Below, piece after piece: positions 4,701-34,700 of a stretch of DNA of 64,000 nt. Made by a program: the position numbers and the translations under genes. Numbering within the stretch: position 1 is the first letter of the stretch; every line of letters begins with the position of its first letter. The notes under the pieces are model-generated. The model was not told where the DNA came from. It saw nothing but the letters and a program-made list of their open reading frames with translations, and did not search any database. The DNA lies in the NCBI RefSeq assembly GCF_026151205.1, contig NC_087083.1, positions 8,429,460-8,493,459 of the forward strand, read 5' to 3'. Origin of the DNA: Bolinopsis microptera. Lineage: Eukaryota > Ctenophora > Tentaculata > Lobata > Bolinopsidae.

Positions 4701-7700
4701 TGCTTTTTTAGCCAGTTTTCAACTTTCCTTCGTCTCTTGTTGTCTCTCCTTTTGAAGTTTGCAGATTTCTTATCACACAGATTTTTGAGTATATCCTTAG
4801 TTTTTCTAGGCCAGGCTTTCCATTTAGTAGGACACTGCATTTTGAGGAATGAAAGCTTATTGTCGAAATGTGATTGGAGGGATTTGAAATCCTTTCCAGG
4901 GAGTGGTTCAAGGTTAAAATGGGATTTGCTCACTTTCTCTGACAAGATCCTGACGATGTTGACTTTTCTAGTGATTGCAAGTCCAAGCATTTTACTTTCG
5001 AGGTGTGAAAAATAAAGTAGCCTCTGAGGATGGGAATTCAGCGCCTGTGAACCCTTAATTCTAAGGGAAACAGGGGGCCTTTTGAGAGTAGTGCAATTTC
5101 TGAGGAAGGTGAGTCTCATTTTCTCAATCTGGAGTTTTCCAAGGTCTGAATATTCCCCGTAGTGCTTACTTAGTAAACTAGGCGATTTCGTGGGAGGCAC
5201 ACTGGGTTGGGATATACCAGTGTCATCAGAAATATTCATACTTGACATCATAAGGTTCCATGTAGTTCCGCGAGGGATTAAAGATAGGAGAGTTAGAATT
5301 AACCCAAATATCAGGGACACGAATGACTACTCCAGGATTTAAGAAACTAAACTTTCAACACTGAAAACATTCAGATTCTTGCCAAATATATTTCGATTGT
5401 AGTCATCTCCAGTGACATTGAACCTAAAAAATGTTAAAAGGTTAGTGAAACTCAAACCGTTACAAAATTAAGAATCCGAAAAAGGTAAAAAGATCATATT
5501 AAGGTTTATGGAATATAGGTAATCCAAAGGGATTGACAGTATTAAGGCCAAAAGGTCTAAGAGAATTAAGCAAATGTATGTAGTTATTTTCTTTTACTTC
5601 AAGTGTACTGGGACTGCAATTCTCTAAAATAAAAGTTCTAAAAGTTTCATTAAAATCTGTATGTACTCCTAAACTCCTATAACTGTATAAGTTGATAATT
5701 TTACGTAGTTGTCATTGATCGGGGATCTGTCAATTACTAATTAACCAATTAAATAATTAGTAACTGTTGCAGTGGTGGGAGCTGGAGAGGGGAATGAAGG
5801 ACCAACCGACCCGGCCTCAGCAAAATACGGAAATGACCCCCTCGTAATAGTTGGAACTGCTGCAGTGGCAAGGAGGGGGGTAGCTGCTACTCTTACTTGC
5901 AAATATGAGTGAGTTACTGATTCAATATAGCTTTTGTCGTACTATTTTGATTTATTTTTAGCTTCAAAGTTCGGTATGAGATTAAACATTAAATGTAAAC
6001 ATCAATATAAATACACATTACACTCGAGTGCATGCTTAATTACAGAACAAGATATTTTAAATCTATTGATAAACCAGAAAGTTGGAAGGGCAGTTGGAGA
6101 TTTTGTGGACAGATGCGGACGGTGCCAAGGTTGGAGTTTACGGTTACGCTTCTAAAGATGCTTACACTCAGAAAACTGAAGATTTTGACGAAGCTACAAA
6201 CTCTCAACAAGGTTAACTTTATATATTTAACGTATGTAACGAGGTCTGATCGTCATCTTCTTACAGCGTATGTAATATTATTATTAGGTTCAAATCTTTC
6301 TGAGATGAGAATTGAGAGCTGATCAAAATTCAAACAGTACATCTTTCTAGCTAGCTTTCAACGATGGTCAATTTTTACTTAAATAGACAGAAATATTATA
6401 GTAATGACGGCTTTAATTAAGGTCTATTAAAATGTGAGAATGTAATATCATGTTTTGTCAGGAATACTGATAATCCACGCCAACAAAGTCGTATCCACAA
6501 CCTCCTTCAAGTGCGAGGTGGGAGCTGGAGCAGTGGACTCTCGTCGCTTACCACCACCAACCAAACTAGAACTACGAGTATACGGTAAGGTTTCTTCGCT
6601 TACCACCGCCAACCAAACTAGAACTACGAGTATACGGTAAGGTTTCTTCGCTTACCACCACCAACCAAACTTTTAAGGCCACCCAATCTCGAACTCCACT
6701 CAGAATACCGATATATCTCAAAATGTACCTCATCAAGTTATTCAGTTATACACATATGTAGGCTACTTCGTTAACAAAAGCTTTTTGTTTCGAACTTCTC
6801 TTGCTGGAAGGTTACTAAGCCAGTAAGTCTCATAGATTTGCTAATTTTAACTTTTACCACGTATACACTAATCTAATGAGCTTACCGGCATTGATTATTA
6901 ATGTAAACGTTGTTAATAATGATCTGTCCTTTCTATTCGATTGTTAATGTTTGTCTAGTAAGCAAATTTTCCAATCACTTAATTGTTCACATGATAATTT
7001 AATTGGCCAGTAACTCCAGTCTGATAACTATTGATAGAAAGGCCATAATCTTTTACCAGCCCTCCAATAAATAAATCCACTTTCTAGTTGTATTTTATAT
7101 CCTCGAATTACACAATAAGAAATGAAATTAACGTATTAGCGTATAATTAGTGATGTGATCCATGGATTGAATATAATTGACCTAGAAATGGGCTAGATCT
7201 GGGGTAAAGTTCATATGACAACTCTGCACACAGAAGCTACAAATTAAGAAGTGAACATGTTTTAAATTGAGACAATGTATTGACTGGTTATAAAATGTTA
7301 AATCGATTAATAATATAATACTTCAGAATACAACAAATTACTCAATATTATTACCAAAGTATTTCGCAACAGCGAACAAGTACTCAATCTTTGTTGGGTA
7401 TGTCGTGTAGCATCCTTGAAGCATCAGCAAGGACTTCTGATATCAGGTTCTGAGTCGCCGACAGGGGTTGTTCTGCAGCCTTCCTCTTGAGCGTTGTAAG
7501 GAGTTCGAGTCTCTGTGGGGTAGCCAGATCTGAATCGTGGTTGTGTGGTTTACTTCCAAGGGAAAGATTGTTGTCTGTGAGAGCGAGATAGCACTTGGCA
7601 GGACATTTAAGGGATTTGTTCTTCTGGCAACGCCAAGCAGAGGAGAGGACGGTGTCATCATTTTTCTTGCGGCTGTAGATATATCCGTCAGAATCAAGCA

Positions 7701-31700: not shown

Positions 31701-34700
31701 TATGGTAGTGTTACTATGGTAACATTACCTTATATTATGGTAGTGTTACTATGGTAAAATATCACTATAAATGAATAAATCACCTCCCTCCACACTCCAG
31801 ATTGATTGTGTCCACTGCCAACATTATCAACACGTGGGTCTCGCTGGTCAGTGAGAATTTCAAGCGAGCCTTCTCTTATGCGGCTATAAAAGTGAAAAAG
31901 GAAGCTGCTGCCATGTCATCTTCTGTTCATCTATACGATGGCTGGATGATCGATGTAAGACCTTATATTTCTTCCCTTTTGAAAATAAATTTCAATTTAA
32001 AAGTAGGCACTAAGCGTCGGTAGAACTAGAAAATAAATTAATCCTCGAAAAGTTGATTTTTAAATTATCCATTCATCACTGGTTTTTGTTAATGCTAACT
32101 AATTCAACGACAAGTGCAGCTTTTTCTGGAGATTAATGTTCTCCTTTTTCTTTATTCTTGCTGATTAGATAATATGAGAATTTAATGTTTTCCCTTGCTC
32201 CTTAATCTTGATACTTTCAGATTAGAGCTAACAACTACGTACAGACCAGCTTCATGTGGACAATGCAGAACCTTCTCTTCCCCTCCACTACGCAGAGTGA
32301 CATCATCAGGTACGTATTTGATTATTTATACGTATTTTATAAAGTAATTTTGTATCTTACGCTCTTGTTTTTAGGTCTGAATACTGGTGGGGATGTAAAC
32401 AGTGAGCCATATTATAAGCCAAAATACCACATTTCAGTCCGCTAGCTTGGGTCGATCTGCCGCACAACTCCACCATACCAGGAGAGACACAGTACATCAC
32501 AGTCAACTTCACTTCATCTGAACCGGTAATTGCTGTTTCACTAATAAGTTAAAAAGCTCAATCTCCGTTTCTATTCTAATTTGTATCCATTAAAGCATTA
32601 ACCGTGCTATTCGTTCTAAAAGAATTTTTAAAAACATTATCAAACTTACATGTCAATCTCTTAAATTGTCTGGATCGAATTTTTTTACATTTAGCAAAAA
32701 AATGTGTTTGATTTTTTCAATATTTAGTTGAACAAAATGCGCCATTATGCATGCGGAGTCTTCCACTTAGGAAAGTGGAAAAACGGTAAGATGCTGCAGC
32801 CAAGAAAGATGCAAAACTAAAATCATTTTAAAAAGATACTAAAATAAAAGGAAACAACCTTAAACGGAGAATAAAAACTTGCTAAAACACTCCTAAACTC
32901 TCTCAGTACCGCTAACATTCCGCTTTAAAATGAATAACTTTATAAATAAATAGCTCAAAAAATGCTATCAAGTAGACAAATTAACTTCTTTGTCAGATAG
33001 GCTATACTCAATACTTCAATAGCACTAGTAATGCCAAACTGATGAAAGTTTATCCCAGCTTTTTAACCGTTATTAGACAAAATGGATGTTTTTATTGAAT
33101 GATACAATTTCTTGGATATTCGACTTATATCGCAGAGCTGTTAACAAATTAACAAATTAACAAATTAAACAAGGCTCCCAACAGTGTTGAATAAATTTCT
33201 AACAGTATCATTTATTGCACAGAAAAGTTGAATGAGGCAGAGTCACCAGATTGGTCTAGGGGATCGTGTGACCACGTGACTGTAGAACATGACTACCAGA
33301 GCGTTATCTGTCAGTGTTCCTCCTGGAAGATGTTCTTAGCTGTTACTCAGGTATATTTAATGTTTTACTCAGGTTTATTTAATTGTTTACTTAGGTATAT
33401 TTAAACGTTTACTCAGGTCTATTTAATTGTTTACTCAGGTCTATTTAATTGTTTACTCAGGTTTATTTTGAAGTAGAATCATAACTCGATTGTTTTGTGA
33501 GTTGTTGTTGAGTTGATGTCCAATTTTTGGTCTTCTTAACTATTACCATTCATAGAGGAAAGAACTAAATCCGCTAGAACTCACATTATTTGTTATTCAG
33601 CAGTAATATTAAAGTCACTATTGTGACGGTACATTAGAACTCGACAGAAACAAAGTGTGAAGGTCCTGAACGGAACCGCTCGGTTTCAGTTCCTTGTTTA
33701 ACACTGCCGTACAGCAAGGACATCCACCGGGTTATATATGACATGAGTAATATGCTTCAGACGAGAAACTACACGAGCGGATTGTGGGGAAACTTTACAG
33801 TTGGTACAGCAGCAACCTCCATGCTGTTACACGCTTACGATATTCTGGACATTGGAGCTATGATACCTCTAGCAGTGGTCTTTATACTTCTCGTCAAAGC
33901 TAGGTATACTAGGGCTTGCTTTATCAAACACAAGGGTTTTTGTTGTGTGTCCACTCAAAACGCTAGGAACCTTGAACATTTTTAACCTGTTTCGATTTGA
34001 GCATTGATCAAAACCTTCTGGCTGACGGGAGGACATTTTACTGGTACATATTAAATATTTATTGGCCTAAAATGTAAATAAAAATAAAAATCAAGCACCT
34101 CTCAAATCATATTTTTATTTTAAAATTCATAAGTTTATAACACTTCCATATAAGGTAATGTTACCATAGTAACACTTTACATTTACTCAGTACCCGGAGA
34201 CAGCCTCTGATGCAGTGCAGGATGCAGATATGTGTGGGTATGGTTGGCAGTCATCTCCTCTCCCTTCTCACCACTTACATGTTACCAGCTAACATCAGCT
34301 GTGTTTACATGGTCTATCTCAGTTAGTGTCACTATAAAATTTAAAATCTATTTTTATATTTTGATCATTTTTCGTTTATCAAAGCTCTATTTGGGATTAG
34401 AACTGTCAGTACGTCAATCGTGTCTTGTGCCATTTTTAGTGACCTTGTAAGATGGTCATTCAAGAAAAATTCAGTCATAACAGTGAAATTTTGATCGCGG
34501 AAACCTGAAATTTAAAAATTTCCTACCGATAGGACATATTCAAAACTTTCATTGCATCAAAGTTTTCTCCGGATATGCTGCTTCCAGCACCTTGATGGTG
34601 ACTTGTGTCACTCTTACCGACCTCACTGATTGGTCAATGGTCAAAATTCAGTCAAAACCGGAAATGTCAGTCAAGGAGTCGGCAGAAAAGCTTCTCTTCA

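Follow-up and report, generated by a model that had tools for sequence, protein, structure and literature searches.

The window analysed here, a 64,000-nucleotide (nt) stretch of the genome of the ctenophore Bolinopsis microptera (C12:8429460-8493459, within a 264.65-Mb, 232-contig genome), carries on its plus strand a gene of 34 phase-consistent exons that runs from a start codon at 1754 to a stop codon at 41079. Eight introns of this host gene hold a tandem array on the donor or the acceptor side, and in five of them the array is linked to the splice donor; it is the anatomy and origin of these boundary arrays that concern us. Exons 1-27 keep phase, have GT/AG ends and give a stop-free translation of 1743 residues, and extending the model through the seven-transmembrane (7TM) exons up to exon 34 gives an open frame of about 2030 amino acids. 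Immunoglobulin (Ig) domains lie in the N-terminal part (Pfam Ig_3, E=4.6e-13), for which homologues were sought and none found, and Pfam gave no match for the two other pieces of the protein submitted, including the GAIN/7TM part. The sole protein match of the GAIN/7TM part is Mnemiopsis leidyi ACHWQZ_G000702 (64% identity, whole 542-residue query), a protein that agrees with the 3′ gene model, contains a Sushi repeat and matches the solved adhesion G-protein-coupled receptors (GPCRs) G6 and D1 (E 0.0011-0.0042). Judged by its predicted protein, the host gene is an Ig-bearing, adhesion-GPCR-like ctenophore receptor. Paralogues for a comparison of intron positions were not found in the genome, where two protein searches matched the gene at one locus only.

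Arrays were called with Tandem Repeats Finder (TRF) and their boundaries then checked by reading the sequence; all lie on the plus strand. At the exon 4 donor (junction 6584/6585), a 52-bp array of 2.5 copies (6544..6671) begins 41 nt inside the exon, so that each unit consists of 41 nt of exon and 11 nt of intron. The exon 12 donor (junction 20283/20284) has the same layout on a larger scale, with 45 copies of a 40-bp unit (20259..22063) that begin 25 nt inside the exon and join 25 nt of coding sequence to 15 nt of intron; mean identity of the copies to the first one is 0.990. About 6 copies of a 22-bp unit (33343..33468) start 8 nt inside exon 27 (junction 33350/33351) and combine 8 nt of exon with 14 nt of intron, while the 16-bp AGGTAACGTGTTACAT array of exon 8 (13.9 copies, 17625..17846; junction 17626/17627) begins with the last two exon bases, AG, to which the unit adds 14 nt of intron. 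Behind exon 5 (junction 10181/10182) lie about 60 copies of the 9-bp unit GTTAGTGAG (10182..10740). Here, GTTAGT stands exactly at the donor and the 9-bp array called by TRF begins 15 nt later, the donor GAG/GTTAGT being the first, slightly irregular copy of the unit. Junction-spanning units in this gene thus measure 16-52 bp, and that of exon 5 measures 9 bp. The lengths at exons 4, 8, 12 and 27 (52, 16, 40 and 22) are all 1 modulo 3, to which we attach no meaning; at other boundary-spanning junctions in the genome, unit lengths leave other remainders. Intron 7 also contains, at 16747-16784, a sequence closely resembling the end of exon 8 with its donor (17611-17649), about 860 bp upstream on the same strand, which aligns over 39 columns with four mismatches and one gap.

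On the acceptor side, a 22/54/76-bp array in intron 6 (11300..16534) ends 1 nt before the intron gives way to exon 7, and three copies of a 22-bp unit in intron 16 (27837..27903) end 2 nt before the intron end at exon 17. The CTCACT array of intron 9 (74 copies, 18178..18661) sits between two copies of CCACCTCTCCCACCTCA and stops 27 nt short of exon 10. None of these arrays runs into an exon. An earlier reading of the window, made from its letters alone (the sequence-only reading), had placed array starts at the donors of exons 4, 5, 8, 12 and 27 and array ends at the acceptors of exons 7, 10 and 17. The link to the donor holds at all five exons, but an exact start is literally true only of exon 8 and loosely of exon 5, the arrays of exons 4, 12 and 27 spanning the junction instead; among the acceptors, exons 7 and 17 bear the description out and exon 10 does not.

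Downstream array donors were scored with a position weight matrix at a cut-off of 4.5 or more. Copies as strong as the true donor number 1 at exon 4, 35 at exon 12 and 53 at exon 5; at exons 8 and 27 there are none, the first donor being the strongest and weaker donor-like copies following it. Among the scored donors of exons 4, 8, 12 and 27 there is not one in-frame open alternative, each either shifting the frame or meeting a stop, and phase continuity at these exons favours the first donor. At exon 27 the Mnemiopsis protein (FLAITE-TRNFTDG) agrees with the first-copy donor spliced to 33761, an exon 28 start derived from translations with starts 33755 and 33758 by removing CAG. Phase, the Mnemiopsis protein at exon 27 and the first donor's advantage in score at exons 8 and 27 together point to splicing at the exon-proximal copy. 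Exon 5 stands apart in that 33 of its array donors are in frame and open, so that their use could lengthen the protein by multiples of VSE; the Ig pattern nevertheless appears to favour the first-copy donor over these equally frame-compatible ones, a long VSE insert being expected to separate the Ig cysteine from the tryptophan in exons 5/6.

It is against this background that regulation or recoding by decoy donors, in which array length would control the proportion of productive mRNA or of protein variants, has to be judged. The 33 open, in-frame donors of exon 5 and the 53 that equal the first in strength are what such a scheme would need, and the human IFI6 (6-16, G1P3) minisatellite is described, in the part of the source available, as providing multiple splice donors (PMC4526556, citing Turri 1995). 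The likeness ends there, since repeat units of IFI6 are reported to be used as donors, whereas later-copy use outside exon 5 would break the frame here. The recoding idea of the sequence-only reading thus lacks support from the scored donors of exons 4, 8, 12 and 27 and keeps a footing at exon 5; as an account of the arrays we regard it as improbable.

Instead, we favour the reading, at a probability of roughly 0.75, that the arrays are 'mirage' minisatellites, tandem duplications across existing donors and not new introns. In a tandem-repeat-rich genome, a short segment straddling an existing donor would be duplicated head to tail, possibly through slippage or unequal exchange, in an intron presumably older than the array. 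The first copy would keep the true exon end and donor, later copies would become intronic decoys made of exon tail and GT, and the array would then grow and homogenise as an ordinary minisatellite does. Provided that the spliceosome uses the exon-proximal donor, such a change would be near-neutral. Were an acceptor duplicated, by comparison, the additional copy would come to lie upstream of the true site, where lower tolerance might be expected. Boundary arrays of this kind are real and mildly non-random, and they are probably harmless.

The name comes from amphioxus, in which tandem repeats at exon-intron boundaries are described for Adh3, the globins BflGb6 and BflGb9 and TnC, with PGBD5 similar (PMC3087553, PMC3902484). 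According to the available text of these reports, the units measure 10-72 bp in Adh3 and 150-160 bp in the globins, many copies carry AG/GT signals, and the repeats are unstable in length, somatically so at Adh3, while regular splicing is undisturbed (PMC3087553, PMC3902484). The arrays of exons 4, 8, 12 and 27 share with them the minisatellite-like tandem duplication of an exon-intron boundary, a unit length (16-52 bp) inside the range of about 10-160 bp, and copies that carry AG/GT. They differ in their ctenophore host, in having up to 45 copies of a junction-spanning unit and in the presence of five donor-linked arrays in one gene; the same text has both boundaries affected in amphioxus, whereas a donor-side excess is estimated here. 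Instability and normal splicing are reports from amphioxus, the ctenophore arrays being known from the sequence of a single assembly, and we count the normal splicing of amphioxus mirages as support for the mirage reading here. By their anatomy, the host-gene arrays appear to be mirages as defined there, in a new phylum and in several genes, of a kind already known from amphioxus. A ctenophore report of boundary-spanning minisatellites was not found in the literature searched, in which coverage of subscription journals was thin.

The same duplication across a boundary could also be read as the first step of a new intron, as the sequence-only reading had it: intron birth in progress, with copies of an AGGT proto-splice segment supplying both donor and acceptor. 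Many units do carry AG/GT, as that reading had said of several, and intron gain by tandem duplication is an established model, with cases in the potato RNA-dependent RNA polymerase gene (PMC4974935) and in Drosophila (PMC2891723); the amphioxus globin authors, in the text available, proposed it for mirages too. As in the host gene, the duplicated segment in the potato and Drosophila cases spans a splice boundary or includes a proto-splice site, and there, so far as the accessible portions describe it, the new intron has splice sites derived from the duplication. In the host gene, by contrast, a single array never supplies both ends of any of the eight introns: gaps of 180-3421 nt separate the five donor arrays from the acceptor, and gaps of 45-199 nt separate the donor from the three acceptor arrays. 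Nor, in the introns with an array at the donor, does any unit include the true acceptor. Intron birth is on these grounds very unlikely, while 'intron growth' can be taken literally: of the 1.98 kb of its intron, the exon 12 array fills about 1.78 kb. A unit closer to what intron birth would require occurs elsewhere in the genome, at L048 (C8:7268823 onward), where each copy of a 37-bp unit, GTAAGT...CTTACCTTATTTCAG (TTATTTCAG), resembles a tiny intron; at least 9 copies stand among the matches listed.

Alternatively, the repeats might have come from elsewhere, as introners or satellite sequences inserted at splice sites. Searches of the whole genome covered the 52-, 40-, 16-, 76- and 9-bp units and CTCACT, and not the two 22-bp units. 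A 46-letter word of the 52-bp unit has 1 exact place in the genome; the 40-bp unit has 43 places at up to 2 mismatches, all within the exon 12 array; and exact 24-letter words of the 16-bp array and of the 22/54/76-bp intron 6 array are found at 11 and 65 places, respectively, all at the locus. The search with CTCACT gave 69 places, 68 of them at the locus and 1 elsewhere. As far as word searches tell, the 52-, 40-, 16- and 76-bp units arose in place and are not mobile, which effectively refutes insertion for them; at exons 4, 12 and 27 the repeated unit includes the tail of the host gene's own exon. Introner-like elements recur at many loci, which these four do not. The 9-bp unit is the exception, with 111 places that include at least 8 other genomic sites among the matches listed. 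By eye, the 8 upstream flanks of these other sites reveal no clear exon donor (in L030 the start of the array was not located), and at L031 a 60-residue open frame runs into the array. That mobile repeats explain the boundary arrays is hardly credible.

The host gene is not the only one with this anatomy. A genome sample of 28 stretches of 10 kb (280 kb) was taken at round-number positions on 13 contigs, and exons were predicted in it ab initio by splice and codon models that had been trained on the host gene and gave no coding credit inside arrays. The chosen threshold yielded 29 chains (152 exons) from the sample and 2 chains (9 exons) from reversed and complemented controls. Run on the plus strand of the window, the gene finder returned 52 exons of all scores, 25 of which are exactly host-gene exons; because of this yield and of the training on the host gene, single ab initio calls are unreliable. 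Single-exon scan and low-penalty chain gene finders overpredicted and were dropped. In the sample, the exon tail ATCATAAGCAG and its donor are repeated at 48 bp in L008, and the exon tail GGTGAACCACCTG is repeated with gtaagt in L022. A further 15 tandem-donor loci were hand-picked among the pattern matches listed, with scores that have no control. Seven begin at an exon donor. For L038, L040, L049, L050 and L051 this follows from ab initio scores above 20; L044, whose start resembles a signal peptide, and L052 score lower (14.6 and 16.2) and were assigned from a reading of the open frame. L039 is weaker (14.8), and no clear exon-donor start was seen at L041, L042, L043, L045, L046, L047 or L048. 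Among 8 exon peptides submitted to Pfam, 5 have no match and 3 have weak ones below the curated cut-offs: Sushi in L038 (0.003), WD40 of the MABP1/WDR62 type in L049 (1e-4) and Activin_recp in L022 (0.004). At 11 of 15 junctions the unit takes in no more than 15 nt of intron; the one clue to this shortness is that short words are shared at some unit joins, such as AAGT at L049.

Some contact between arrays and exon edges is inevitable in a repeat-rich gene, and plain coincidence through random scatter is the explanation that the placement counts address. Tandem arrays occupy 20% of the window and about 10% of the first 20 sample loci. Our main null places arrays at random within their own intron and lets them overlap the exon by one unit at most or, in a second version, by at most min(unit, 41) nt. 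Since several distance cut-offs were tried, the p values should be taken as indicative. In the host gene, arrays within 20 bp of a donor number 6 of 25 against 2.43 expected (p=0.024, overlap up to one unit) or 6 of 35 against 2.70 (p=0.042, lower TRF threshold, overlap up to min(unit, 41) nt), values within 0.02-0.05, whereas acceptors fit chance (2 against 2.45 and 3 against 2.71). In these tests the starts of exons 28, 30 and 34 are off by 1-3 nt, and no array crosses a cut-off as a result. The sample was cleaned by removing 8 of the 29 chains, which overlap a better chain, and exons that are more than half repeat, leaving 21 chains, 96 exons, 75 introns and 96 arrays. Before cleaning, 12 of 149 arrays lay within 20 bp of a donor against 5.89 expected (p=0.008) and 7 within 20 bp of an acceptor against 5.88 (p=0.36). 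Pooling the gene with the cleaned sample gives 14 of 127 at donors against 6.57 (p=0.004) and 7 at acceptors against 6.54. For arrays with a TRF score of 100 or more, the pooled donor count is 11 of 45 against 3.81 (p=0.0004), with acceptors at 5 against 3.80, and the sample alone gives 6 of 32 against 2.25 (p=0.014). Six arrays enter an exon at a donor, with L022 adding a seventh, and one, in the sample, does so at an acceptor (L021, 19 nt), which fits the lower tolerance expected at acceptors. The donor excess is thus moderate, about two- to three-fold, and comes in part from arrays that run into the exon; acceptors show no such surplus against the main null, and a nominal one once the stricter null given below is applied. 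The pooled donor excess and the junction-spanning arrays of several independent genes speak against coincidence, which we hold to be possible though somewhat doubtful. That chance placement is unlikely, as the sequence-only reading had argued for all these boundaries, stands moderately for donors (about twofold, threefold for strong arrays) and lapses for acceptors.

Words resembling a multiplied donor were also counted. The whole genome contains 6480 instances of the perfect donor MAGGTAAGT and 4500 of the same word reversed, with tandem pairs numbering 1050 and 8, respectively; for CAGGTAAGT the pairs number 474 against 1. These counts give no ground for an excess at the level of loci, the reversed word being a poor control and the pairs coming from few large arrays. 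In the 280-kb sample, composition-matched 9-mers (permutations of the same letters) are tandem at 2.5% of their occurrences, as coincidence would have it, and at 0.6-0.8% when counted as clusters, while 100 donor pairs among the matches listed collapse to about 9 loci in some 59 Mb of sequence (C1, C2 and part of C3), which by extrapolation is about 0.6%. Enrichment of a donor-like motif in array units is suggestive only: 12 of 121 in the sample against 7 (reversed) and 7.8 (shuffled), and 7 of 36 in the window against 1 and 3.6.

Several of these results weigh against the mirage reading. The comparison of array edges with random placement proposed by the sequence-only reading does show a donor excess in the 280-kb sample, but one that is weaker than in the gene and weak when taken alone: within 20 bp, the cleaned sample has 8 of 96 at donors against 3.90 (p=0.035), one of the 8 being doubtful (L027, -66), and 4 at acceptors against 3.91. 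Sample arrays reaching to or past the donor number 3 against 2.08 expected (p=0.35). A stricter null restricted to arrays wholly inside introns (pooled n=116) leaves nothing at donors within 10 bp (2 against 1.67) and an excess within 20 bp (7 against 3.18, p=0.036), while acceptors gain a nominal excess within 10 bp (5 against 1.65, p=0.024), with 6 against 3.17 within 20 bp (p=0.093) and 9 against 4.68 within 30 bp (p=0.037). None of the acceptor counts that this null gives for the sample by itself is significant (2 against 0.92, 3 against 1.77 and 4 against 2.63 within 10, 20 and 30 bp). The pooled donor-minus-acceptor test is weak, at p=0.059 within 20 bp and 0.035 for junction-reaching arrays. 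Tandem MAGGTAAGT loci are, by our estimate, about as frequent as those of composition-matched 9-mers. At exons 4 and 12, as at exon 5, later donors match the first in strength, and strength alone gives no explanation for first-copy use. Finally, the donor excess is larger than tolerance alone predicts and is without a demonstrated cause.

A bolder view takes splice donors to be hot spots of minisatellite birth, where an exon tail and the first few intron bases are joined and the donor multiplied, such that hundreds to thousands of genes would carry donor ladders and at least one, that of exon 5, would be able to yield length variants. The figure is extrapolated from 2 junction-spanning cases (L008 and L022) among the 96 cleaned sample exons, and we hold this view to be doubtful.

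Boundary-spanning minisatellites have so far been described, in the published text available, for a handful of lancelet genes, and their presence in several genes of an early-branching animal suggests that they are no lancelet oddity. Up to 45 near-identical donors behind one exon make a natural experiment on how the spliceosome chooses when many 5′ splice sites are equal, and it is in such arrays that the rare conversion of a repeat into a new intron might be sought.

Tandem repeats gathered by the host gene are exonic as well as intronic, with a coding 30-bp array in exon 11 (19145..19694) and a coding 15-bp array in exon 20 (28978..29716), both on the plus strand, called by TRF and translated as acidic low-complexity linkers. 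Elsewhere in its introns, the minus strand of intron 1 (2180-5320) has three long open reading frames (ORFs) of 420, 381 and 207 amino acids, the first two without a Pfam match, which are bracketed by near-identical direct repeats (about 1970-2360 and 5290-5675, by eye); we take the ORFs and repeats together to resemble a Penelope-like retroelement. Nested antisense in intron 4 (8223-9359, minus strand) is an uninterrupted rhodopsin-type GPCR frame (7tm_1, E=6e-16). In the last intron (36600-40889) lies a DNA transposon; it has DDE_Tnp_4 pieces (E=1.1e-13 and 1e-11) and inverted termini, of which a tandem repeat of 56 bp forms part (89 reverse-complement 11-mers are shared). Further along the window, at 52896-58874 on the minus strand, is a 1992-amino-acid open frame of a retroelement of the long terminal repeat type, with reverse transcriptase, RNase H and integrase domains. 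In the sample, the near-palindrome GTTACCATAGTTAC, presumably X-box/RFX-like, occurs 25 times on both strands of L002-L029 against 0.0 expected under a first-order model; 26 of 29 related matches on one strand lie inside tandem arrays, so that few arrays inflate the count.

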